Source of the DNA: Streptomyces uncialis | GTDB lineage: Bacteria > Actinomycetota > Actinomycetes > Streptomycetales > Streptomycetaceae | DNA: 64,000 nucleotides | Direction of reading: 5' to 3' | Assembly: GCF_036250755.1 (NCBI RefSeq) | Contig: NZ_CP109584.1 | Location: 1-64,000 of the forward strand | Shown here: piece after piece, positions 11,595 through 28,898 of the stretch | How positions within the stretch are numbered: the first letter of the stretch is position 1 | Layout: every line of letters starts with the position of its first letter | Program-made: the position numbers and the translations under genes | Notes under the pieces: model-generated | The model's database searches: none | What the model was told of the DNA's origin: nothing | Seen by the model: the letters and a program-made list of their open reading frames with translations, nothing else

Positions 11595-12092
11595 TCAGCC
11601 GCTGGCGGCCGTCACCGCGTGGTCGATGACCGCGGTGAGCACGGGCAGATCGGCGGTGTAGTCGCCGTAGCCGTGGAGATCGGCGGCGAGCCGTGCCGCA
11701 CCGGCCACCCCGAGCACCGCAGTCTTCTGTCCGGGCGTCAGCCCGTCCCCGAGGACCACCGCGCCTTCCCACAACTGCTCCCGCACCTCGGGGCCCACTC
11801 CCCCGTCGCCGCCGGTGACGGTGCCGGTGTGCGGGTCGCGGACGGCGGTGTCGAACGGGTCCAGGCGGTCGAGCGTCATCTCCACGGCGTCGGCGAGATC
11901 GAGGAGGGGATGGGTGACCCCGGGAACGGGATGGGCGTCGGCGGGGGCGAGGGAGCGCAGCCAGCGCCCCGCGCGGATACCGGCGGCGCGGGCGTCGGCG
12001 AGGACAGCGGCCTGCTCGCGGTCGTGTTGTTCGGGGTTGAGTTGTTCGGCCGACGGGTCCGGCAGGGTGCCTGGTGCGGGGAAGGTGGTCAT
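11595..12092 (-). CDS. Hypothetical plasmid protein
   Basis: 165 aa from the ATG at 12092 (an in-frame upstream start at 12140 is possible). Ala/Asp-rich, mostly helical, with LADAVEMTLDRLDPFD and a C-terminal AVLGVAGAARLAADLHGYGDY. No membrane segment, signal or catalytic motif. Together with the next gene it looks like plasmid-backbone filler of unknown role. Confidence 0.5.
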   Translation of the reverse strand: MTTFPAPGTLPDPSAEQLNPEQHDREQAAVLADARAAGIRAGRWLRSLAPADAHPVPGVTHPLLDLADAVEMTLDRLDPFDTAVRDPHTGTVTGGDGGVGPEVREQLWEGAVVLGDGLTPGQKTAVLGVAGAARLAADLHGYGDYTADLPVLTAVIDHAVTAASG

Positions 12093-12164
12093 ACCGGTCC
12101 AATGAGCCGGGCACCCCGGCGGTGGCGCAGGGCCGGGCATCCCGCGCCTTGCCCGACGCCGGGT

Positions 12165-12630
12165 TCAGCGTTCCGTACGGATGCCCTGGTACCCGGGCCC
12201 GAGACCACGCCGCCGCGGCCGGGGCAGCGACGGCGCCCCGGGTGCGGGGGCGGTCTGGGGTCCGGTACCGGCGGCGGGTCCGGCCGGCTCCCCGGCGGGG
12301 AGACCGAGATGGCGGCGGGCGGCGGCCGTGGCCGCCGCCACCGCCGCGAGCGCCTCAGCGGTGGCGGGGCTGATCCCGGACAGCGCGGCGGTAAGGACGT
12401 CGATCGCGTCCAGGGCGTCCTCCGCCGCCGCCTCGCTCCAGGTGGTGGGTGTGACGACGTCGGCGAGATGGCAGGCGCTCTCGACCACCAGCTCGGCCCG
12501 CTGCTCGACCCCGGGTGCCGCCCGGGAAGTAAGTCCCATACCCGGGTTCAACGACGCTGGTGGCGGAATCGATCGCCCTCTTCACGCTGATGTCGATCGG
12601 GTCCTTCACGTCACTGTCCGGGATGTTCAC
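12165..12630 (-). pseudogene. Helical protein gene, apparently frameshifted
   Basis: The start region reads MNIPDSDVKDPIDISVKRAI in one frame (from 12630). The rest, GVEQRAELVVESACHLADVV...EDALDAIDVLTAAL, is in another frame ending at 12165. The switch falls at about 12530-12555 around a CCCGGG-rich stretch. Either one gene has suffered a one-base indel, or two short overlapping genes exist; both halves look coding. It sits upstream of the unknown gene at 11595-12092, in the same direction. Confidence 0.45.
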
Positions 12631-12708
12631 GCCGTCTCCGGGATGACTGACTGCCCAGGCCGGAGACGGTGGTCGCCCTCGGGGATGCAGACCCCGGGGG
12701 TGTGCCGG

Positions 12709-14331
12709 CTACCGGCGACGTCCGAACAGGCCGCGGCTCTTCTTCACCCCCGCTTCCGCAGCCTCGCGGGCAGCGGCCTCCTCCGCCCGACGGCGGGCAG
12801 CACGTTCGGCTTCGGCGGCGGCTTCCTTCCGGGCGACGTCGTCGCCGTGGCAGCTCCCGCACACGGACAGGTCGCCGGCCTTCCAGGCTCCGGGGCGCGC
12901 GGTGGTCTCCTCCCAGCGCTGGTCGGTGAACTTCGCCCCGCACCGCGAGCACACCGGGCGCTGCGCCTCCCGTTCGGCGGCCCGCTGCCGCTGGTCCTTC
13001 TCCTCGGCCCGCTCGTACTGGCGCCGGTAGAGGGCGTCGCCGTCGGGGTTGTCGAGCGCGGCGGTCAGCGTCTGCTCACCGGTGCGGCCGAGACGTCGCC
13101 ACACCGCCGCGTCCGCGCCGTGCTCCTGGAGCCGCTCCAGGGTGGTGACGACCACGGGCACCACCTGGCCGTGGTCGAGGGCCGTGATCCCACGGTAGAA
13201 GCTGTCGTACCTGCGCGGTGCCCAGTGCCGTCGGCCCGCCTCCTCCAGCACCTTCACCGTGTTGGCGACCCTGGCGTCCGTGGTGTCGGCGAACACGAAC
13301 GCCAGCGGAGGTGTGCCTTCCCTGCCGGTCGGCGGGTAGACCCGGCGCCACAAGCGCTCCTCGTGGCCGACGAGCTGCTCGATCGCGTCCGGCCGGGAGC
13401 GGACCAGGTCCACGGTGCGCTGGTCCGCGTCCGGAGGGAGCAGCCGGAACCAGTCGGCGTAGCGGTGGAGTTTGCGGACCAGCTGGTGGGCGTCTTCGGT
13501 GCGGCGGTCGATCTCCAGGAGCAGGATCGGCACCTTGGCCTGGGGTGCCCGCATCACGAGGTCGGCCCGCTGCACGAACCCGTTCCCGAGCCGGTGAGGG
13601 ATCTCGGTCTGGAAGGCGAGCGGGTGCCCGATCCCGGCTCGGTGGAGTTCGGCGGCGGTCGAGGTGACCGCCGCGGCGTGGTCGCTGTAGCCGGTGCCGA
13701 GCAGCTCCCCGGTGTCCGGGTCGTACTCCTGCTTGCGGAGCACCGAGATCCGTATGCCCTCCGGCTCCAGCAGCTTCCTCGCCTCGCGGTGTCCCCGGTC
13801 GGTGAGTACCCACACCTGCCGCTGGTCCTTCTGGACCGATTCGATCCTCACCAGGCGGTGGTCCTCCATGTCCAGGAGGTTGTCCCGCGTGAGCCTGTCG
13901 TGGCGGTTGCCGGGGCGGGTCAGCTTCCACAGCTGGTCGGGCGTAGCCCTCTGGAAGATGCCCAGCGCTTGCAGCAGTTCCTGGCGCCGGGGTTCGGTCG
14001 AGTTCTTCCTGTGCACAGGTCGCCTTTGGACAAGAGGGTTGTCGGACCTGCGGCGACCCCCTGACCGGCCGGGCTGACCTGCGGAAACGCCCGGCTTCTG
14101 ACGACGAGGCGCGGAGGGGGTGATGGAGGGGCCCGTGGAGGGGGCCTGCGGAACCCGGTCGGCGTCGCCGCCGGGCGCCTGGTCGGCGGTGGCGTGCGGC
14201 TCGCGGGCGGGGCCGGGTGTGCGGTCGGCGGGCACGATTGTCCTCGGATTCTCCGGCCTGAAGGCCGGGTCGGCGATCGTCCGGCCCGTACGCCGAACTG
14301 CGCACGGGCCGGGCCCACCGTGAAAGCGCAC
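12709..14331 (-). CDS. Replication-relaxation family protein
   Basis: Up to 540 aa; the true start may be well inside, since the first ~110 residues are low-complexity and the GTG at 14331 has poor spacing. From RRQELLQALGIFQRATPDQL a winged-helix domain (DNLLDMEDHRLVRIE) is followed by a nuclease-like/relaxation core (LLLEIDRRTEDAHQLVRKLHR, a D/E-R-K pattern). The C-terminus has a zinc site (CSRCGAKF...CGSCHGD) and a Lys/Arg-rich tail. This matches the Replic_Relax type found on actinobacterial plasmids and ICEs. It probably acts on plasmid DNA in replication or transfer; the biochemical role is not established. Confidence 0.7.
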   Translation of the reverse strand: MRFHGGPGPCAVRRTGRTIADPAFRPENPRTIVPADRTPGPAREPHATADQAPGGDADRVPQAPSTGPSITPSAPRRQKPGVSAGQPGRSGGRRRSDNPLVQRRPVHRKNSTEPRRQELLQALGIFQRATPDQLWKLTRPGNRHDRLTRDNLLDMEDHRLVRIESVQKDQRQVWVLTDRGHREARKLLEPEGIRISVLRKQEYDPDTGELLGTGYSDHAAAVTSTAAELHRAGIGHPLAFQTEIPHRLGNGFVQRADLVMRAPQAKVPILLLEIDRRTEDAHQLVRKLHRYADWFRLLPPDADQRTVDLVRSRPDAIEQLVGHEERLWRRVYPPTGREGTPPLAFVFADTTDARVANTVKVLEEAGRRHWAPRRYDSFYRGITALDHGQVVPVVVTTLERLQEHGADAAVWRRLGRTGEQTLTAALDNPDGDALYRRQYERAEEKDQRQRAAEREAQRPVCSRCGAKFTDQRWEETTARPGAWKAGDLSVCGSCHGDDVARKEAAAEAERAARRRAEEAAAREAAEAGVKKSRGLFGRRR

Positions 14332-14766
14332 CCCTTGACCGCGGTCTGACGCCCACCACCGACCGGTGTCCGTTTTACCCCTTGACCACCCCTTGGCTGC
14401 CCTGAATGTCCGTGACCGACGTCATGAACGGGCTCCTGGCGAAGCCGTCCGCGTTCCCGCACCCGGAAAGGAGGCGGAGAACTCTCTCCTCCCCCAAGGG
14501 GCGATGCCCGGCCGGGGCGTGGTGGTGCGGATCAGCGGGTGGCACAGCTGCCGGACGGAGAGGAGACCGGGTCGCCAGCCGCACGGTTTGCGGGAGCGGA
14601 AGGGGTCGCCCGGATGCCGGTGGCGCACCGGTGTAGGCGGTGGCGCGCACCCGGCACGATGCGCGGGACACGATGCTCCGCACTCCCCCGACCCCGATGG
14701 TGCGCACCGGATGCCGCGCATCACGGTGGACACCGGCACGGCATCCACTCCCCCGGCCGGCGACAC

Positions 14767-14819
14767 GATGCTGTGCACTCCCACCCGATGGTCTCCACCG
14801 CGTGGGAGTGCACAGCATC
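14767..14819. repeat. Perfect 18-bp inverted repeat
   Basis: GATGCTGTGCACTCCCAC at 14767-14784 is mirrored exactly by 14802-14819 around a 17-nt centre. It is the cleanest member of the GATGC repeat family in this block. Confidence 0.85.
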
Positions 14820-14925
14820 CCCGCACCACGTACCGACGCTACGCACGGTCACGATGCACGGCCCGGGCCGGGGCGGAGAGATCTCCCCTCCCCCGGCGCA
14901 TCCGGCGTGCATCGCAGACCGGATG

Positions 14926-14951
14926 CTCGGCATCGCCGCAGCGATGCCGAG
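14926..14951. repeat. Perfect 11-bp inverted repeat
   Basis: CTCGGCATCGC and GCGATGCCGAG flank CGCA. It is a short-loop member of the same GCATC/GATGC family. Confidence 0.8.
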
Positions 14952-15326
14952 CCGGGTCAAGGGGAAACAGCGAAATCCAGTAGCTGGTCAAGGGTTGCAT
15001 TCCGCCCGGTGACCGCTGCCGTGCTCGGAGGGCATCCCCGGTCAAGGGGTACCCACCGAGTGCACAGCATCCGATGCGCCATCACCCTCCGTGTCCACGA
15101 CGGGTTCGCGGGGCCGGGCCGGAGTGCCCTCTGGCGGGCACCGCGGTGCTCATCGTGCGGGCGTGGGAGTGCTCGGCATCGCCGGCGCGTGCACCGGATG
15201 CACCGGATGCGCTCGGTTCGGTGCATCGTGCGCACCTGGGTGAGTGCACGGCATCGCCGGGCACGGCACGGGGCGGGTGCACGGCATCGTCGCTCCGGGC
15301 ACCGGATGCCATGCACCCGCCCGCAC

Positions 15327-15563
15327 TCACCGCCGGCGGCGGCGCAGGCGCATCGTGCGCCACGGGTTCGGCCGGCTGCCGGGGTACTGCCGGGAGAACC
15401 GGCGCGGGCGCACGGCCGGGGGCGGTTCCGGCGCCGGATACAGCGCTTGGCGCAGCCGGGCCGCGTCGGCGAGCTGCTCCAGGCGGTCGATACGCCGGTC
15501 CAGGTCCGCGGCGAGCAGTTGCAGGTACTCCGGTGTGACGCGGGGCGGGGTCGGATCAGCCAT
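15327..15563 (-). CDS. Small basic protein, possible relaxase accessory
   Basis: 78 aa, starting MADPTPPRVTPEYLQLLAAD. An amphipathic helix (DLDRRIDRLEQLADAARL) is followed by a strongly basic tail ending RRRRR. It lies just downstream of the relaxase gene and beside the repeat block, so a DNA-binding accessory role in transfer is plausible but unproven. Confidence 0.5.
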   Translation of the reverse strand: MADPTPPRVTPEYLQLLAADLDRRIDRLEQLADAARLRQALYPAPEPPPAVRPRRFSRQYPGSRPNPWRTMRLRRRRR

Positions 15564-15741
15564 GCGGGCCTCCAGCGGTGAGAAGGGAAGTCGGTTCCCC
15601 GCACCCTCGCCGCTCCCGGATGGCTGCGGGGGTGGGCGGGCGGTCGCGTCCCGGCTGCTGGCGCGGTGACTTCGGACCCTGTCCCGCCGGGCGGTCTCCC
15701 GCCGCCCGGCGGCAGTCCGGGCGTCGTGGTGGTCCCGGCCG

Positions 15742-17736
15742 TCACGGCTGAACGCCCCGGCCCTGATTCTGGCCGTGGCCGTGGCCGGGTTGCTGGTGCT
15801 GCTCGTGCTCCTGGCGGCGCCGGTCGACCGGTCCGGCCGGGTCCGGGAGTTCCCCGTCGGCCAGGGCGCTGCGGTCGGCGTCCTCTTCGGCGAGCCTGCG
15901 TTTGCGGGCCTCGGTGGCGGCGGTCAGTTTGGCGAGTGCAGCGAGGCGTTCCGGGGCGGTCGTCCACGTCCCGGGGTCGGTCGTTCGGCCCTGCGCGTAC
16001 ACCTCGGGCATCGCCGCCCGCAGATGGGTGTGGATGGCGGCGGACCGTTGTGCCGGGGTGAGGAGGGTGTCCCGGCCGGGGTGGCCGACGGCGTGCGGCG
16101 GACCGGCCGCCGCCCAGTCGTCGTGGTGATGGTGGTGGTCGACGGCGTGCGGCCGGTCGGCTGCCGCCCGGTCGTCGTCGTGGTGGTGACGGTCGTCGGT
16201 GTGCGGGGGCGGTGTGGTCGCGGCCGGGGCTCCGTCCCGCGCAGGGGGTGTGGTGCGGGCGGTGCGGATCGCGTTCTGCAAAGCCAGGCTGGCGACCTGG
16301 GCCCGCTCGTACCGGGTCGCCGAACGCGGCGGTTTGCCGTCGGTGCCGGCGATGAACCAGCGGTCGGGCCACGGGAAGTCGGCGGTGTAGGTGATCTGGT
16401 CCGGCGCCGGGGTACGGCGCCCTTCCCGGGGCACCGTGAGCTGGCGGCTGTGGCGGGCGAGGGCCTGGTCGGCGATGTAGTCGTCCACACGGGGCGGGAA
16501 CGCGCGGCCGCGCAGGGTCTCCAGCAGATGCCGCCGCGCTTCGGCCAGGACGTGGCGGCGGGCGAACGCGTTGCGGACGGTGTAGACGACGGCGGCGACA
16601 TCGACCGCCGCGAGCGCGGTGTCCACGAGCGGGCGCACCCGGGCCCGGATCAACGCAGCTGCCGTACGGCAGCGTTCCAGCAGCCCGCCGATCATCGCCT
16701 TGCCGAAACGGAGGATCGCGGACGCACGCCACCACGCGAGCAATTGGGGCAGCGGGTGCGGGGTCTTCTTGTCCGGGCGGGTGTCCTGCGCCGCCCACCA
16801 CCCAAGGTTGTGGCGGGCACGCTCGTCCGGCAGCCGCCCGTACGTCTTCACGTACTCGTCGGTGATCGTCTCCAGGGCGTCCTCAATCCGCCGGCTGCGG
16901 GTCGACTTCCACTCGATCAACTCGGCGGGAACACCGGCGATCTCCATCACCGGCCGCAACCCGGGGGTCACCTCCCGCGGCACCGTCGCCAGGCCCAGTT
17001 CCTCGCACACCTCGGTGGTCATGGCGAGGGTGTAGAGCGTCCCCGCGGCCACCGCGTGCCGATAGAGCCGGCGGGTGTCGAGCGCGTACCAGGTGCCGTC
17101 CGCACGTTGGGCCCGGTTCAGGATCAGCACGTGCTCGTGGAGCAGCGGGAAGCCGTCGCGGTTGTCCCAATGCCGGAAGGATGCGGCCACCAGACCGGGC
17201 GGCTTGGCCCGCTTCCTGCCCGAGGACCAGCGGATCTCCGCGACCTCATCCTCCAGCCACTCCAACACCCTCGCGACCGCGCGTGCGTGCGCCCGCTCGA
17301 TCACCTCCCGGGTCCGGCCGTCCCCCAGCGCCCACAGCACCACCAGTGACGCCTGCGGCCGGAACACGAACTCCAAACCCAGCAGCGGCACCAGGTCCCG
17401 CTGCTCGATCTCCTCGACCGGCTGCCCCAGAACCGTCGCCAACCGCGCCGACACCGAATCGTCCCCGCCGGCCAGGCCCTCCCGCTCCAGCCAGTCCGCG
17501 TCCGGATGCCGCAGCTCCCCGAACACCAACTCCAGCTCCCGCTCCCCCACCACCGCCCCCGCGACCAGCCCGAGCCCCGGAAGACCGCGGCCCATCCACA
17601 CCCCGGGCGGGAGCCCCGCCTCCTCCTGGGCGTCCTTCAGCGACTGACCAGCCGGACGGCGGCCGTCGCCGACGACCACACCCCGCAGGAAGTACTGCCA
17701 CGCATTACGCCTCTGGATCTTCGCGACACTCAGCAT
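15742..17736 (-). CDS. MobF-type conjugative relaxase (TrwC domain only)
   Basis: 664 aa. The N-terminus MLSVAKIQRRNAWQYF carries the likely nicking tyrosine, Y15. The three-histidine metal site is intact: FRHWDNRDG...PLLHEHVLILN, with H189, H200 and H202. These are hallmarks of MobF relaxases, which cut one strand at oriT and stay bound to its 5' end. The usual C-terminal SF1 helicase is absent. Instead residues ~500-560 are His/Asp-rich with a repeated PHAV unit, and the tail is Gln/His-rich. The start at ATG 17736 matches the conserved beginning; a GTG at 17727 is better spaced from GGGGGG. The single-stranded mechanism contrasts with the FtsK-like ATPase at 35838-38045. Confidence 0.8.
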   Translation of the reverse strand: MLSVAKIQRRNAWQYFLRGVVVGDGRRPAGQSLKDAQEEAGLPPGVWMGRGLPGLGLVAGAVVGERELELVFGELRHPDADWLEREGLAGGDDSVSARLATVLGQPVEEIEQRDLVPLLGLEFVFRPQASLVVLWALGDGRTREVIERAHARAVARVLEWLEDEVAEIRWSSGRKRAKPPGLVAASFRHWDNRDGFPLLHEHVLILNRAQRADGTWYALDTRRLYRHAVAAGTLYTLAMTTEVCEELGLATVPREVTPGLRPVMEIAGVPAELIEWKSTRSRRIEDALETITDEYVKTYGRLPDERARHNLGWWAAQDTRPDKKTPHPLPQLLAWWRASAILRFGKAMIGGLLERCRTAAALIRARVRPLVDTALAAVDVAAVVYTVRNAFARRHVLAEARRHLLETLRGRAFPPRVDDYIADQALARHSRQLTVPREGRRTPAPDQITYTADFPWPDRWFIAGTDGKPPRSATRYERAQVASLALQNAIRTARTTPPARDGAPAATTPPPHTDDRHHHDDDRAAADRPHAVDHHHHHDDWAAAGPPHAVGHPGRDTLLTPAQRSAAIHTHLRAAMPEVYAQGRTTDPGTWTTAPERLAALAKLTAATEARKRRLAEEDADRSALADGELPDPAGPVDRRRQEHEQHQQPGHGHGQNQGRGVQP

Positions 17737-19408: not shown

Positions 19409-20506
19409 TCAGTCAGGCTGAGTGGATCCACCAGCAGAGACTGCCTGACGCTCTCTGTGGCTGTTGAGCACGTCCAGCATCTTGTTGAACTCGTCAGCCG
19501 GCATCTTGTGGATCAGGTAGTGCGCCGCATCGATGCCGTCCTCGTAGGGAAACAGCTTGGGCTGGTGGCCACCTCCCCCGGTCTCCGCTTTGACCTGTCC
19601 AGGAACGGCTGGTGTGGTCCCCTTCGCTGTATCGGCGGAGGGGGCCAGTCCCGGGGCAGCAGGATCCAGCACTGGGTCCGAGCCGGTTTTACGGCCGTAA
19701 AACGGATCGCCGACTCCGATCCGTCCAGGCCCGGCAGGCGGCTTCGCTGGCAGAAGTTTGGGGGCAGCTGACACTTTGGCTGCCTTCTTGGCGGCTGACC
19801 GCTCGGCGGATGCTGTGGCACGCTGCTTCTGCTCGCCTTGCCACCATGCCAGCTGTTCGGTGGTGCCCCATTGCTTGTCCCGGGCTAGCTTGCCCAGCGA
19901 CCGCGCAGCGTCGAGGGGCATGTTCTTCTTTCGTACCAGGTCCTGAAGCTCTGGGGCCAGGTTGGTGAGGAGGATGCGCTGGGTGACCCATCCGTCGACT
20001 CGCTCGAAGTGCTGGGCTACGGCGCGGTTGGAGCCGAATTCGGCGACCAGGGTCTGGACGGCGTACGCCTCTTCGATGGCGTTGAAGTTCTGCCGGTCGA
20101 CGTTCTCGGAGACGACGGCCTCTATGAATGTCCTGCGGTCTTTGGCCAAGCCGTCGTCGACGACGCAGTTCAGGGTGGGGTTGCCGTTGGCTGTAGCGCC
20201 CCGGTATCGACGTTCACCGGCGACGAGAACGTAGTCGACGTCGGCGACCTGCTTGGCGTGGTCGGGCCACAGCTTCAGGTAGGCGCTGCGGCTGACGGCG
20301 GGGCATGCCTGGATCTGTCGGCGTTGCAGGCTCTTGCCGAGGTCGATCAGTTCGGCTTCGGTGCCGAAGTCGGTGCGTGGATTGACGACGTTGGGGGTGA
20401 GCCGGCTGAGTGGGACCCGGAGCAGGCGGCCGTCGGCTCGGGTGTCAACGACTGGGGCGTCGTCTCCTTCGCCGAAGAAGTCGTCGAAGTCATCGCGCTT
20501 GGCCAT
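19409..20506 (-). CDS. parB: ParB/RepB/Spo0J-type centromere-binding protein
   Basis: 365 aa. Conserved ParB CTPase-domain blocks are present: NPRTDFG near residue 42, LVAGERRYRGA near 93-103, and then a helix-turn-helix region (NRAVAQHFERVDGWVTQRIL). The C-terminus is a linker and a helical end likely for dimerisation. It starts directly beside the parA stop. The coding sequence itself contains a copy of the TTTTACGGCCGTAAAA palindrome (19687-19702). Function: binds parS sites and, with ParA, partitions the plasmid. Confidence 0.9.
   Translation of the reverse strand: MAKRDDFDDFFGEGDDAPVVDTRADGRLLRVPLSRLTPNVVNPRTDFGTEAELIDLGKSLQRRQIQACPAVSRSAYLKLWPDHAKQVADVDYVLVAGERRYRGATANGNPTLNCVVDDGLAKDRRTFIEAVVSENVDRQNFNAIEEAYAVQTLVAEFGSNRAVAQHFERVDGWVTQRILLTNLAPELQDLVRKKNMPLDAARSLGKLARDKQWGTTEQLAWWQGEQKQRATASAERSAAKKAAKVSAAPKLLPAKPPAGPGRIGVGDPFYGRKTGSDPVLDPAAPGLAPSADTAKGTTPAVPGQVKAETGGGGHQPKLFPYEDGIDAAHYLIHKMPADEFNKMLDVLNSHRERQAVSAGGSTQPD
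19687..19702. promoter_or_regulatory. parS-like palindrome inside parB
   Basis: A perfect 16-bp palindrome TTTTACGGCCGTAAAA, within an 18-bp one from 19686 to 19703. The same sequence occurs twice upstream of parA. AT-rich arms inside a GC-rich gene suggest selection on the DNA. It encodes FYGRK in ParB. Confidence 0.7.
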
Positions 20507-21262
20507 CTAGCGTTCTCCCGCGTACTTCCGGCGGCGGAGCTGATGCTCCAGGGCGAGAGACACGAAATCCTGCTTCGCCTTGGTGGCGATGTGGTTGGAC
20601 TCGTACTGAGTGCAGAATCGCCCGTTGGTGATGCCGCGGGTGTGGGGCTTGTAGTGACGCACGGTGGCGTTGTACAGCTCCCAGCCTCTGCGTTGGACGA
20701 GGCTGATGGTGCGGTCACGGTCTGCGGTGCCGTCGCGGGGGTCCCAGTTGTTGACGACGACCCCGTAGGGGATCTGGCGGGGGACCAGGACGCGCTCGAC
20801 GGTGACCCTGGTGGGGGTGAAGGCCGATCCCTCCGCTTCAAGGGGGACGATGACGTCGTCGGCGACATCGAGGACGGCTCGGAGGGCGTCTCCGGTGGTT
20901 CCGTCACCGAGGGGGTCGATGGACTCGTCTTCGTCTTCTTCGGCCTTCAGCGGCATGAAGCCCGGCGTGTCGACGATGATGATGTCGGCCTTGGCGCTGC
21001 GCAGACGACGCAGCTTGTCGAGGCTTTGGCTTGCGTCGACCACGCGGAAGGGAACGGGCCTGCCGGCCTTCTCCACCTTCTCGGCGTGTTCGATGCTGGT
21101 GCCCTGTGGGTCTATTGAGACGACCGCTACGGACGGGCCACCACCTTCGGCGTCGGTGGCATCGCAGCCGAGGATTTCGGCGTAGACCGCGGCGAGGTTG
21201 ACCGACAAGAGGGACTTGCCGACCCCGCCCTTACGGTTCAAGAGCACGGTGATGTAGGGCAT
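20507..21262 (-). CDS. parA: ParA-type partition ATPase
   Basis: 251 aa, small ParA without an N-terminal DNA-binding extension. The deviant Walker A motif RKGGVGKS lies at residues 10-17, Walker A' around SIDPQGTS, and Walker B in IIIVDTPGF. ATP-bound dimers would coat the nucleoid and be driven off by ParB. The gene is directly followed by parB. Two palindromes lie upstream at 21370 and 21429, which could serve as both centromere and operator. Confidence 0.92.
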   Translation of the reverse strand: MPYITVLLNRKGGVGKSLLSVNLAAVYAEILGCDATDAEGGGPSVAVVSIDPQGTSIEHAEKVEKAGRPVPFRVVDASQSLDKLRRLRSAKADIIIVDTPGFMPLKAEEDEDESIDPLGDGTTGDALRAVLDVADDVIVPLEAEGSAFTPTRVTVERVLVPRQIPYGVVVNNWDPRDGTADRDRTISLVQRRGWELYNATVRHYKPHTRGITNGRFCTQYESNHIATKAKQDFVSLALEHQLRRRKYAGER

Positions 21263-21614: not shown

Positions 21615-22301
21615 TCACGCGTTCGCCTCCGCGATAGCGGCGTTCAGGAGCGCCGCGGCGTCGGCCTGGTACGGGGCGGTGAACATCTGGCGGTCGCTGA
21701 CGCCGAGCGGCCCGAACCTCGCGGAGATGCGGTAGCCGGGCGCGAGGGTGGTCTCTCTTCCGTCCAGTGCAGCGGTGAGCCGGTCGTAGTCCTGCTGGGC
21801 GTGGCGGGTCTGGGTGTACGGGCCGAGGCGCAGCAGGGTGAAGCCGTCGAGGCTGTCGTCGCGTTTGCGGGCCTCGATGTAGAGGGCGTAGTGGGCGGGT
21901 TCCATGCCGAGGTCGTCGGGCAGGGGGATGCTGGCGGCGGCGTGGGTGAGCGTCGCGTATGCGGGCTGCCAGGTGCCGAGGATCGCGGTGGTGTTGCAGC
22001 GGAGCCAGCCGCGTTCGGTGTAGCCGAGGTGGCGGCGGTGGAGGTAGGCGGCGTGCGGGGTGTCGGGGTGGACCATGGAGACGGCGATCTGGTCGGTGCC
22101 GTGGTCGTCGCCGGGTCGGGGTTGCGCGCGTTCGGTGAATGGGCCGACCTGGACGGCGATGTCGTCTCCGGTGCCGGGTGTCCAGGGCTGCGGGTTCTTG
22201 CGGGCGGTGAGCATCGCGCGGAGCTCGTCGTCGGCGGCCTGGTCGGCGGGGGCGAAGGTGCCGAATGCGTGGCCGCAGCGCTTCCCTCGTAGACGCTTCA
22301 C
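21615..22301 (-). CDS. Unknown protein of the nucleotide-metabolism cluster
   Basis: 228 aa from a GTG overlapping the end of the transferase gene as GTGA. Contains CGHAFGTF near the start, a middle region (YTERGWLRCNTTAILGTW) and a repeat-like FTLLRLGPYTQTRHAQQDYDRL. No family recognised. With the mobile element removed it would be translated directly after the HIT and deoxyribosyltransferase-like genes, so it is probably part of the same pathway. It now lies 6 kb from its original promoter. Confidence 0.6.
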   Translation of the reverse strand: MKRLRGKRCGHAFGTFAPADQAADDELRAMLTARKNPQPWTPGTGDDIAVQVGPFTERAQPRPGDDHGTDQIAVSMVHPDTPHAAYLHRRHLGYTERGWLRCNTTAILGTWQPAYATLTHAAASIPLPDDLGMEPAHYALYIEARKRDDSLDGFTLLRLGPYTQTRHAQQDYDRLTAALDGRETTLAPGYRISARFGPLGVSDRQMFTAPYQADAAALLNAAIAEANA

Positions 22302-22486
22302 CGGGTGGCCTTCTGCCGGGTGATGAGCGTGAGGGCGGCGCTGACGGTGTCGGGGAGGGTGGTGAGGACTGGTACGCCGTGGCGGCGGGCGATGTAGATC
22401 AGGTAGCGGTTGCGCTGCGGGTCGGGGCAGTCGGGCGGGCAGCCGAGGACCGCGCGGCCGGTGGTCACGTCCAGTCCGAATTCGAC
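22298..22486 (-). pseudogene. 3' part of the interrupted deoxyribosyltransferase-like gene
   Basis: 63 codons. It begins with GTC GAA TTC GGA CTG GAC, reading VEFGLDVTTGRAVLG, and continues PQRNRYLIYIARRHGVPVLT to the stop. The other part is at 28581-28898. Joining the two and removing one copy of the 6-bp core gives a 166-aa protein in frame. A GTG at 22468 might still give a 56-aa product. Confidence 0.85.
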
Positions 22487-22510
22487 TTCCCTGTCAAGTC
22501 AGCGTGTTGA
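22487..22510. repeat. Left terminal inverted repeat of the element
   Basis: TTCCCT (22487-22492), nine bases, GCGTGTTGA (22502-22510). It matches the right end at 15 of 15 fixed positions. A GTCCGGT/ACCGGAC hairpin at 22556-22578 just inside may terminate the recombinase operon. The rest of 22511-22707 holds no gene. Confidence 0.85.
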
Positions 22511-22707
22511 GACTTCTGGCCGACGTGCGCCGTGCAGTCCCTCAAGGGCAATAAGGTCCGGTCGGGTCCGTACCGGACGGAGCCAGCACGGACCCACTGC
22601 ACACTCCCTGCGCGTCGGCCGGGCAGACGACCCGGCACTGTGGACGATCAGCCCTCTTGCCGGGCCCCGAGCGATGAGTTGGGCCGAACGAGGTGAGGAT
22701 CCCTGGC

Positions 22708-25249
<2,542 letters not shown>

Positions 25250-25253
<4 letters not shown>

Positions 25254-26998
25254 TGGTCAAGCTCCCCGGTCAGAAGCGAGTTGATGAGGGTGCGGTCGGC
25301 GTCGGTGACCCGATCAAGAGCCTGCTCCCACACGCCGTCACCGACCTTGCGTTTGAGGTCCTCAAGGCGGTCGTAGGGCTCGCCCCAGTCGTCTGCCCAG
25401 GTCTTCGTCGGCAGGATGGAGCGGAGACTGGCCAGTGAGGCGTGCAGATGGACGAGCCGCGGGTGATGCCCGGGATGGACGTGGGCGTTCTCGCAGCCCA
25501 GACACATCAGGAACGACGCTCCACAGCCACCATCAGGTGCCGGATAGGGACTGTCGTCGAAGTCCCGGCAGTCCGCGGTCGCGGTCTCCACGTCCCCTGG
25601 GGTCGGTTCGTCGCGCAGTTCGGCCACGAGGACCGCCGCGCGGGCGCGGTCGGCCGCGTCCTCGGCACCGGCCGCGATGGTCTCGACGGCGTCCGCCTGG
25701 ACCCGCCTGTCGACCAGGGCGTACTTGCTGTCGTGGGTGGCCTGGCTGTGTTGGGCCGGTTCACGGCGGTCCACCGCCGTCACCGTGCGTCGGCCCCGAC
25801 GGAACGGCGAGCTGTCGAACCCTTCGGCCCGAGCCCAGTGCTGTGCGCTGCTCTTGTTGACGCCGAACCCGAACGGGCCGACGTTCGCCTGGCGGTCGCG
25901 GTCCGAGTGCGGTCGCTCCATGTGCCCGCGCCACACGACCAGGAGGTCTGTGCCAGGGGAGCGCGCGGCGACGGCGCCGCGGGCGAAGCGGGTGGCCTCC
26001 AGCGCCTGTGTGATCAGCCTGCCCCGGGATGCCGCCCCGTCGTCCGTGACGTTCCGCGTCTCGAAGGAGTAGCCGCCGCCACGGCGATGCTTCTGCACCG
26101 GAATGCGGTAGGTGGGATGGCCGTCCTCGCCCGGGTCCGGCGTCGCGCGCGGCACCCGGGCATGGTCAATCACGGACAAGTTCCAGCCGTACTCCGCCAT
26201 CAGCAGCACCCCCAGCGCCGCCGCCTCCAGACGCGTCAGGAACAGCCGCTGCCACGTCGCCTTGGCACCGACTCCGCCGAAGGCCCGCTCATAGCGGCTG
26301 AGGATGGTGGATTGTCTGCCGCTCTTCTCGGTGTAGCGCGGCAGATCCCCGGTGCGGGCGAGGAGGTCCAGGCCCTCGCCGAGCAGCCAGTCAAGGCTCC
26401 CCTCTGCGAAGACACCCGCTCGCCATCGCTCCAGGTGACGGGCGTTCTCTCCGATCCGCAGCAGGGCCGCCCGGAACGTTCGCCGTGCTGCCGCCTTGAC
26501 CAGGTCGAACTCGGCCTCCGAGTACGACTGCGTGCCGCTCTTGGGGACCTTGATGCGCTTGGCCAGTTCGTCGGCGACGGGCCCGCTCTGCAGACGTTCA
26601 TCGTCCAGCAGCAGCCCGATGGTCGAGGCGTACGTGTTGTAGTCGCCCATCGTGCCGCCCAGGCTCGTCCGCCACCGTTTGACCAGGGCGCCCGTCAGTT
26701 CGTCGAGGTCGCGGGGCGGCGACTCCTGCTTCGATACAAACGTCGCGAAGCGGCTCAGCCGCTCCCAGTTCGCCTTGGACGAGCTGTGCCGACTCCAGTG
26801 CCCGGGGACACAGCGGGCGGCGAACAGGACGGCGAGCGAGTGCTGCATCGACTCGGCGACGGGCAGGGCGGAGAAGTCGTAGACCTTGGCCTGGTTGCGC
26901 TTGTTGTAGTGCCGCACCACCAGGCCGTCGACCGCCAGTGGCTCGGGGCGTACATGATCCGCCGGCGGGAGGGAGGCCCGGCGGCCGCGCCCGCTCAT
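25250..26998 (-). CDS. Second recombinase-like protein of the element
   Basis: 582 aa. The N-terminal part resembles a SAM-like core-binding domain (WERLSRFATFVSKQE..., YNTYASTIGLLLDDE). The region where the first catalytic Arg is expected reads LLMAEYGWNLSVIDHARV, with no obvious GxR motif. A Cys-rich tail (GGCGASFLMCLGCENAHVHP) is present. It may be a catalytically degenerate partner that works with the other two recombinases. Placement between two clear recombinase genes, with 4-bp overlaps, is the main support. Confidence 0.65.
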
Positions 26999-28563
26999 GC
27001 TGTACCGGTCTTCGCGGGCAGCAGCCGCTCGTCGATGTCCTGGATCCCCTCGGACTCCCGGGCGACGCGGGCGAACACCGCATCCAGCGCCGGCATCGGG
27101 GCCTCGTCCGGGTCATCGTCGGCCGAGGCGAGCATCGCCCGCAACTGCAGGTCGGCGACGGGCGCGAGGTAGTGCTTGACCGTGGTCTCCCGCGAGGAAT
27201 GACCCAACAGGTTCTGCACCATGAACCACGGGTCACCGTAGAGCAGTTGGAAGTCTCGTCGCTCCTCCGGCGTCAAGCCGAACCGCTCGTCCATCAGGTA
27301 GTTCAGGACAACCAGCATGAACAGGGCGAAAGAATGGCGTGCGGAGTGGGGCGTGGCGTACGGCGCGTATACCTGGTGCGGGTCACGACGCAGGTGCTCG
27401 GGCGGGGTCAGCACCCGCTCGCACCGCTGGTTCGCCGCCCGGAAGACCCCCTCCCACGAATGCGGATGAAACGGCAACCCTCGCTCGTTTAGCCACAACC
27501 ACAGCGGCTCCGGACCGTGCGGTCCTTCCTCGAACAGCAGCGTCCGCTCCCGCCACGTCAGCTTGTTCAGCTCCCGCTCGCCGACCACACCGTTGCGGTC
27601 GCACCAGCGGACCTTCGGCTTCAACCCGCGGGTGACCTCGATCAGCATGCGCATCTCGGGCAGCCGATCATAGCGGCCGGCCCGCTGGGCCTTGCGCACC
27701 GCCCAAGCCCGTGAGGACGCTGCGTACGACTCGATCTCACCGACCGCGTCCGACGCCACGTAGTAGGTCCGCGCCTTCTTCGACCGCGTTACCTGCGCCG
27801 CGACCTTCCCCCGGTAATAGCGGCCTCCACCCAGACGCCGCTTGGGGATCTCAAACAAGAGCAGGGATCCGGCCTCCGATAGCCGGAGCCCCGACGAGGT
27901 CAGCGTCCGCACGAACGCGACGTTGCGGTCCTCCAGGCGCCCCACCCACCCGGCTTCCGGAACCCCTTCCCGGGTGTGTCCTCGCAGCCCAACGTCGATC
28001 CAGCGGCGCCAGGTACGCGGCGTCAGCCAGTGCACGTTGCTCGGCCCGGCGCCGTCACCTCGACCATTCGAGCTGTAGCGCATCGCCACCGGGTCGTACG
28101 GCAGATGCCCTTCCCGCTTGGCCCATCCGTACAGGCTCGCGAAGGCCGCCAACTCCCGATGCCACTTGGCGTCCCCAATCCGCTCCGGGTTTGCCTCGGC
28201 CTCCCGCCGCCATTGCTCGTAGTCGTACAGGTCCTTCGGGGACACGTCCGTCCATCGACGGCTCCGACTCCATAAAGCGGTGAGGAGCAGCGTGATGTCC
28301 GTGGCGTAGTTCCGCTGGGACTCATCCGTGTACCCGCGGAAGATCTGCGACTGGCCATACAGGCTCAGGAGCGCGTCGACCTCGTGGTCCGGCGACAAGA
28401 AGATCGCGTCTCCGGCCCGGACTCCCGCCTCATCCTCGCGCGCGGCCAGGTCGCCCCAGCCCTTGATCAGCGCGCTTCGTACGCCGCCTCGCATCGCATT
28501 CTGCGGAACCCAAAACACGCGCCAACTCACCGTGGTTGCACCCCTCTTGAACGGCTTCAACAC
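26995..28563 (-). CDS. Tyrosine recombinase (TnpA-like)
   Basis: 522 aa, first gene of the operon. All catalytic positions are present: R227 (SSGLRLSE), H406-x-x-R409 (PHSARHSF), H455 (LLGHSSRE) and Y465 (TVKHYL). The N-terminal ~170 residues form the core-binding helical domain. The start lies 17 bases from the right end of the element, so the promoter must sit within the end itself or in flanking host DNA. Confidence 0.88.
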   Translation of the reverse strand: MLKPFKRGATTVSWRVFWVPQNAMRGGVRSALIKGWGDLAAREDEAGVRAGDAIFLSPDHEVDALLSLYGQSQIFRGYTDESQRNYATDITLLLTALWSRSRRWTDVSPKDLYDYEQWRREAEANPERIGDAKWHRELAAFASLYGWAKREGHLPYDPVAMRYSSNGRGDGAGPSNVHWLTPRTWRRWIDVGLRGHTREGVPEAGWVGRLEDRNVAFVRTLTSSGLRLSEAGSLLLFEIPKRRLGGGRYYRGKVAAQVTRSKKARTYYVASDAVGEIESYAASSRAWAVRKAQRAGRYDRLPEMRMLIEVTRGLKPKVRWCDRNGVVGERELNKLTWRERTLLFEEGPHGPEPLWLWLNERGLPFHPHSWEGVFRAANQRCERVLTPPEHLRRDPHQVYAPYATPHSARHSFALFMLVVLNYLMDERFGLTPEERRDFQLLYGDPWFMVQNLLGHSSRETTVKHYLAPVADLQLRAMLASADDDPDEAPMPALDAVFARVARESEGIQDIDERLLPAKTGTA

Positions 28564-28580
28564 GCCAATTCAATAGGGAA
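28557..28580. repeat. Right terminal inverted repeat of the element
   Basis: TCAACACGC (28557-28565), nine bases, AGGGAA (28575-28580). It is the inverse of the left end and overlaps the start codon region of the first recombinase gene. Confidence 0.85.
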
Positions 28581-28898
28581 CTCGACGTTGGTCGTCATGC
28601 CGGGCATGGTCCGCAGGTCGCGGGGGATCCAGAAGAGGATCGCGGTCGCGTTCTGGCGGGCGGTGGTCTCCCAGTCGACCTGGTCCTCGTAGCGGGCGGC
28701 GCGCTGTCCGTTGCGGGACTCGGGGGACAGGACGGTCAGCGGCGTCTCGCTGTTCCACTGGGCGGTGAGGGTGTCGAGGGCGGCGGGCCGCCAGGACGGG
28801 GCGGGGGCGCTGCGGTCCGGGGTGGGGCCGGCGAGGAAGACGGACGGGCTGCCGGAGGCCGGGAGGGGTTCGCGGGCCATGACAAGGCGTGTGGTCAT
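28581..28898 (-). pseudogene. 5' part of a nucleoside 2-deoxyribosyltransferase-like gene
   Basis: 106 codons up to the element. The sequence VFLAGPTPD, then AARYEDQVDWETTARQNAT and ILFWIPRDLRTMPGMTTNVE, matches the nucleoside-deoxyribosyltransferase-like fold (GP loop, catalytic-type E/D pair, substrate loop). Such enzymes exchange bases or cleave N-glycosidic bonds of nucleosides or nucleotides. GGAGACA precedes the ATG, which overlaps the HIT gene stop (ATGA). Readthrough into the element adds only a few residues (FPIELAC), so the product is truncated. Confidence 0.8.

Follow-up and report, generated by a model that had tools for sequence, protein, structure and literature searches.

The 64,000-nucleotide stretch of Streptomyces uncialis DNA analysed here (the window; positions 1 to 64,000 of contig NZ_CP109584.1, assembly GCF_036250755.1) carries a deoxyribosyltransferase-like gene (22298-28898) that is cut after codon 106 by a 6,094-bp element at 22487-28580. 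The contig is 90,296 bp long, in a genome that also has a 9.1-Mb chromosome, and with ParA/ParB-like genes at 19409-21262 of the window it looks like a plasmid. This work concerns the four-gene element, its relatives in other actinomycetes and the pattern of short sequences that they leave at their targets. The features of the locus are given below, where P1 to P4 are the products of genes 1 to 4, and IntA, Tfp, IntB and Srap are the proteins of SE-type elements, the system known from marine bacteria to which it is compared.

22298-22480, minus strand: 3' part of the interrupted gene, 61 codons with stop (from the sequence and relatives)
22481-22486 (gene strand 22486-22481), minus strand: P4-side flanking hexamer GTCGAA (from the sequence), the native target hexamer if the family rule described below applies here
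22487-22510, plus strand: alpha end on the gene-4 side, TTCCCTGTCAAGTCAGCGTGTTGA (window sequence, pattern search and end consensus)
22511-22707, no strand: short stretch between gene 4 and the alpha end, in which no cargo gene was found
22708-23130, minus strand: gene 4 (P4), 140-amino-acid Srap/TnpC-like protein (profile match to SE Srap, probability 96.3, E 1.9e-9)
23127-25253, minus strand: gene 3 (P3), 708-amino-acid long tyrosine recombinase, IntB position (R363, K397, R503, H525 and Y535 kept in 45/45)
25250-26998, minus strand: gene 2 (P2), 582-amino-acid tyrosine-recombinase-fold protein, Tfp position, without the first catalytic Arg
26995-28530, minus strand: gene 1 (P1), 511-amino-acid active-type tyrosine recombinase, IntA position (R216, H395, R398, H444 and Y454 kept in 52/52)
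28557-28580, minus strand: beta end on the gene-1 side, TTCCCTATTGAATTGGCGTGTTGA (window sequence, pattern search and end consensus)
28581-28586 (gene strand 28586-28581), minus strand: P1-side flanking hexamer GTCGAG (from the sequence), a foreign 'fingerprint' if the family rule applies here
28581-28898, minus strand: 5' part of the interrupted gene, 106 codons, ending in GTCGAG (Pfam PF15891, E 5.1e-11; uninterrupted homologues in relatives)

The original prediction, made from the letters of this DNA, described a base-precise insertion flanked on both sides by the hexamer GTCGA(G/A), with an exact in-frame reconstruction of the split gene. All of this was upheld, down to the coordinates. 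The flanks read GTCGAG and GTCGAA on the gene strand, and with one hexamer retained the split gene reads through as 106 + 61 codons. In a search for the intact site among 246 genomes of the host's genus, 19 matched, the host among them, and nine of these 19 loci (L120-L128) encode NVE-F(G or S)LD across the site without a break, showing that the two halves are a single gene elsewhere.

The predicted 24-bp ends are also present. They are imperfect inverted repeats in which 15 specified positions are identical and the middle nine mostly differ (alpha, GTCAAGTCA; beta, ATTGAATTG); alpha ends are of the GTCAAGTC type and beta ends of the ATTGAAT type. The pattern TTCCCT-N9-GCGTGTTGA, with up to two mismatches allowed, has two matches in the window, both of them perfect; in 100 shuffled controls the mean was 0.12 matches, and one control reached two. 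Similar ends were found in other copies of the family, as had been proposed as a check. Similarity to the motif located the P4-side end in 22 copies; in the others it may be outside the flank, decayed or different. Consensus ends were derived for each side in each clade (alpha, n = 9 and 12; beta, n = 17 and 26), and part of their conservation is built in because the ends were chosen by closeness to the motif.

Between these ends lie an active recombinase, a degenerate recombinase-fold protein, a long active recombinase and a TnpC/Srap-like protein, in that order. The genes overlap by 4 bp at all three junctions, as predicted, and the profile match to SE Srap bears out the TnpC-like nature proposed for the fourth protein. 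Comparison with relatives puts the likely start of P1 at the GTG codon at 28530, giving 511 codons; the start given by the open-reading-frame finder, 28563, falls within the end repeat. In P2, Asn273 replaces the first catalytic Arg in 58/58 relatives, Tyr426 and Lys303 are invariant, and the C-terminal part has a Cys cluster (C477, C492, C499, C502). The structure model of P2 (mean pLDDT 68, pTM 0.46) is of low confidence in the catalytic region. The top 11 of 52 Foldseek matches to this model were tyrosine recombinases; since all had E values of at least 0.17, Foldseek alone was not relied on for the fold and a second look was used. The model is silent on whether Tyr426 is a nucleophile.

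This layout corresponds to that of the SEs, a system that the original prediction did not name. (Published systems are cited throughout from excerpts of the papers.) The window element matches their order of intA (with RHRY), tfp (lacking RHRY), intB (large, with RHRY) and srap. Like SE-6283, SE-6945 and the SE in pAQU1, it has close or overlapping genes, a second-place recombinase-fold protein without the full catalytic set, a long recombinase third and Srap fourth, together with imperfect inverted ends, a 6-bp scar and precise targets; its ends measure 24 bp, compared with 13-19 bp published for SEs. Profiles were built from six of eight fetched SE-type loci or plasmids, excluding L082 (no annotation) and L084 (interrupted), and among these the one in pAQU1 alone is named as an SE in the excerpts. 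Against these profiles the positional counterpart was best in 4/4 rows, the match being good for P1 and P4 and weak for P2 and P3; as similarity to the SE proteins, this is clear for P4, fair for P1 and weak for P2 and P3. The element differs from SEs in host phylum, in a protein likeness that is at profile level only, and in the hexamer beside P1, discussed below.

The element belongs to a family that is frequent in actinomycetes. A protein search scored at least 549 P2 homologues among the 8,000 candidates that it retained. Those among the 120 listed are named 'hypothetical' or 'uncharacterized', one also 'Integrase', and the named proteins nearest to P2 are mostly from Streptomyces. All 55 named loci (55/55) are from Actinomycetota, in contrast to the Gammaproteobacteria published for SEs: mostly Streptomyces, but also Kutzneria, Nocardia, Mycobacterium, Crossiella, Amycolatopsis and others. 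These loci were gathered by P2 with query patterns from an actinomycete alignment, so that they are uninformative on how often P2 is missing. S. caniscabiei and Nocardia transvalensis are known as germs. P2 was present in 13/61 relatives, counting the own genome and weak matches, and in 2/396 genomes sampled over the phylum, again counting the own genome; the latter figure is a lower bound because at most three candidates per genome were scored. A tree of 58 P2 rows has a clade A that includes the window copy and a clade B whose P2 proteins are ~45-50% identical to that of the window, with four further rows as a distant outgroup. Within clade A, five mycobacterial copies group together with support of 100/100. 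The host chromosome itself has a second copy, of clade B, in yifB (L005, 3347-13865), which is 45% identical to the window P2 over residues 1-487; its P2 is broken by a gene pair that, by eye, we take to be of IS21 type.

Exact-site insertions were found in yifB (in both clades), an LmbE-like deacetylase, GFA-domain genes, an M15 dipeptidase-like gene, a pRiA4b ORF-3-like gene, a C5 methylase, an SNF2 helicase, DUF4192 and others; two of these targets were confirmed by Pfam, and the other names were given by eye. Keeping one hexamer gave a recognisable gene across the junction in 12/14 joined copies and an unclear one in L006 and L017. No common target-site consensus was evident, judged by eye alone.

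The two flanking hexamers carry information about the transposition reaction. SEs keep the native hexamer at the intA side and bring the donor's to the far side (PMC9345347, PMC10214605), and Tn552-II, likened by its authors to Tn554, has the same polarity (PMC12486829). Both hexamers could be read in 17 copies of the present family, eight with differing pairs and nine with identical pairs that are uninformative on polarity. For yifB, the comparison comprised 30 uninterrupted genes, the best 30 of 120 same-genus genomes with a match, in which the site reads, in the orientation of the element, GACCAC (17), GACGAC (7), CACCAC (3) and three others once each. L005 has GACGAC at the P4 side and CGAAGC at the P1 side; L025 has GACCAC and CACCCA, respectively. 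Five more yifB copies, in which only the P1 end was found, carry CAGGGC, CCGCAG, GGTGAC, CTCAAC and CTCCAC there, none of which occurs among the 30 genes. L020 and L016 fit their Pfam models better with the P4-side hexamer, and codon use agrees with the P4-side hexamer as native in L023. Collectively, the P1-side hexamer is foreign in 10/10 decided copies of standard orientation, and in five of these the P4-side hexamer could be read and was taken as native. The count excludes the window copy and L017 (synonymous), both undecided. Also left out was L018, another yifB copy, whose other end was not found; its P1-side hexamer occurs in 0/30 genes, but the encoded Met-Ile may be natural. Relative to the operon, the polarity of the family is thus the mirror image of that in SEs.

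The mycobacterial group bears on what sets this polarity, as its ends are exchanged. P1-side ends there score as alpha over beta by 13.9 bits in L015, 1.9 in L169, 11.2 in L013/L014 and 8.8 in L021, and the two P4-side ends found score as beta over alpha by 4.3 (L015) and 8.8 bits (L169). L015 lies in a DUF4192 gene, the site of which codes for Leu, Val or Ile together with Pro in 29/29 uninterrupted genes. Its P1-side hexamer, CTGCCT, occurs in 1/29 of these genes and its P4-side hexamer, GCCCCC (Ala-Pro), in 0/29, by which the P1-side hexamer, adjoining the alpha-type end, reads as the native one. The simplest rule over all decided copies is that the native hexamer lies beside alpha and the brought-in one beside beta, whatever the operon direction. 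As L015 combines exchanged ends with a native P1-side hexamer, an SE-like arrangement found in this copy only, polarity seems to follow the end sequence and not operon direction.

The window element is probably a tyrosine-recombinase transposon of autonomous type with SE architecture; a search of the open-licence literature found no description of its actinomycete lineage. As read from the sequence, it has four overlapping genes between imperfect inverted ends and an exact insertion into a coding sequence; in relatives, a native target hexamer is retained beside one end and often a different one lies beside the other. How single strands are exchanged, how a circle forms and what P2 and P4 do would follow by analogy with SEs. 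In such a scheme, P1 and P3 would exchange one strand between the two ends, and P2 and P4 would be required for assembly or for bias. A circle holding a single hexamer, the donor's alpha-side one, would be made and copied while the donor keeps its copy, and integration would put the carried hexamer beside the beta end, the target's own staying beside alpha. With the alpha end at the P4 side in most copies, the window included, the polarity relative to the operon would mirror that of SEs and Tn554. L020 and L016 are sisters in the P2 tree (100/99), and the foreign hexamer of L020, one with a frequency of ~0.001, is exactly the native hexamer of the L016 site; this agreement is expected if the circle carries the donor's alpha-side hexamer. 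L169 agrees too, its beta-side CTGCCC being the hexamer most often native at the DUF4192 site (10/29). The element is SE-like and not a plain SE member, because host range and the native-hexamer side differ and protein homology is partial. More tentatively, and just short of an even call, we propose a large actinomycete sister lineage of the SEs whose copy-out strand bias is set by end sequences and not by the operon, with standard members mirroring SE/Tn554 and a mycobacterial subclade, its operon turned between the same end types, regaining SE-like polarity.

Three other explanations have to be weighed. That the window copy is a dead relic which no longer moves is unlikely. The genome has no second close copy, the other P2 match being the 45%-identical one in yifB; however, the four genes have intact reading frames, and in their catalytic residues P1 and P3 match the family consensus, as do both ends.

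Tn554 has the map tnpA, tnpB, tnpC. Strict membership of Tn554 is ruled out by the extra conserved gene P2. That the element is an ordinary actinobacterial Tn554-related transposon with a third gene picked up by chance, moving the hexamer from left to right as Tn554 does, is quite unlikely. Tn554 and Tn552-II have a short and a long recombinase with a TnpC-like protein and import 6-7 bp from the donor; the 6-bp scar is common ground (PMC10214605). The actinobacterial Tn554-related elements of Van Houdt 2012 further share the hosts, the abnormally long recombinase beside a shorter one and, in some, the TnpC-like partner; they have two recombinases, the shorter of ~350 amino acids, and no P2-like gene is described in the excerpt (PMC3414803). 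Nor does Tn554, as far as the excerpt of PMC10214605 goes, have a recombinase-fold protein in second place, and the same holds for Tn552-II. By contrast, P2 is kept at full length in both clades and was found beside P3 in 6/8 plasmid loci fetched with P3 alone (not in L174 and L175). Further, Tn554 and Tn552-II receive the donor sequence on the opposite side, the hexamer polarity of the present family relative to the operon being opposite to that of SEs and Tn552-II.

A GInt, with three integrases and GinD, in which two-strand excision and heteroduplex repair leave a partly random hexamer, is very unlikely. GInts (ginABCD) resemble the element in their four-gene operon of essential genes, three recombinase-type proteins, site precision and cargo beside gene 4, and PMC5385486 describes imperfect direct repeats, precise targets common to distant members and a GinC that, like P2, is without the first Arg. 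However, the degenerate protein is third in GInts and second here, where the third is catalytic (a separation by gene order, drawn from GInt descriptions rather than sequences), and a random outcome would not predict 10/10 in one direction, even with kinship allowed for. The original 'mix of RIT and Tn554 layouts' is not the best filing for a layout that is that of SEs with a degenerate P2: RIT elements also have three adjacent overlapping recombinase genes, but they consist of these three genes only (~3.5 kb), the archetype having recombinases of 315-410 amino acids that all carry the catalytic Tyr (PMC10214605), and membership is ruled out by four genes, proteins of 511, 582 and 708 amino acids plus P4, and the degenerate P2.

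Several points weigh against the SE-like reading and its polarity rule. In the reverse reading of the profiles, Tfp scores P3 at 34.5 and P2 at 31.4, and with single pAQU1 proteins P3 scores 25.6 against IntA and 21.5 against IntB. The searches of the SE authors did not report this family, as far as the excerpts tell. The polarity evidence consists of 10 copies, five of them with the P1-side hexamer alone; it is weakened by the close kinship of L033, L034 and L051 (the GGTGAC, CTCAAC and CTCCAC copies) and by L011 (CCGCAG) coming from a genus other than that of the comparison genes, and the evidence from L016, L020 and L023 is mild. The window copy is no test of the rule because both its hexamers are native in relatives, the nine uninterrupted sites reading GTCGAG (3), GTCGAA (3), GTGGAG (2) and GTTGAG (1); polarity from this copy alone was therefore rejected. 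The reversal with exchanged ends comes down to one decided copy, L015, the P1-side end of L169 being slightly alpha-like at 1.9 bits. Finally, in L173, a more distant mycobacterial copy outside the tree, the P1-side end is of beta type, so that not all mycobacterial copies are exchanged. Mobility itself is a prediction from the DNA sequence.

No cargo gene was found between gene 4 and the alpha end of the window copy, and its description as a minimal form of a larger family without passenger genes holds. Among the 22 copies with a located P4-side end, the distance from gene 4 to that end is 0.9-7 kb in 18 and at most 200 bp in four: the window copy (200), L054 (101), L041 (118) and L016 (103), whose own operon is interrupted. 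The family thus usually carries further DNA, of which the window copy has none. In a scan that covered ten cargo proteins, several copies look like carriers of defence-type genes. The ~1.8 kb of cargo in L005 includes a DUF6932 gene matching the candidate defence family PDC-M63A; cargo in L006, L019, L020, L025, L035 and L048 encodes NB-ARC, trypsin-like, Schlafen AlbA and PIN proteins, a long WD40 protein with, by eye, a P-loop part and, again by eye, a SIR2-like protein.

Other cargo is of different kinds. In L027 (14397-15590), an MFS-type transporter is 49% identical to the transporter gene broken by the element; this was the only target homologue when cargo was compared with the broken gene, its pieces kept apart, in 11 copies (1/11), and it parallels the target-gene-like gene of Tn552-II (PMC12486829) and the bcp homologue of SE-6283 (PMC9345347). 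In L169, on a Mycobacterium intracellulare plasmid, the DNA from gene 4 to the far end (11621-17599) includes genes annotated as kasB, hadA and cutinase, so that this plasmid element carries lipid metabolism genes. The only cargo gene picked out in L023 (14599-16719) encodes a UvrD-like helicase. Beyond both clades, distant P2 relatives with 26-29% identity to the window P2 occur within the host's order in L065, L068, L069, L073, L074 and L076; with their adjacent P1- or P3-like genes, these six loci are a third lineage.

SEs have so far been reported only from Gammaproteobacteria, for which the authors, in the excerpts cited, tentatively name reaction complexity and host factors. An actinomycete lineage of SE build would widen this host range and offer Streptomyces hosts that are non-pathogenic and open to genetic work. 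With elements whose ends are mirrored or exchanged, both what the recombinase-fold protein does and where the strand bias comes from become testable; if the proposal is true, this natural end-swap experiment could reveal how the strand for exchange is chosen. In Streptomyces, Nocardia and mycobacteria, the family would also account for some of the genes named 'hypothetical protein' or 'integrase' and for broken genes adjoining them.

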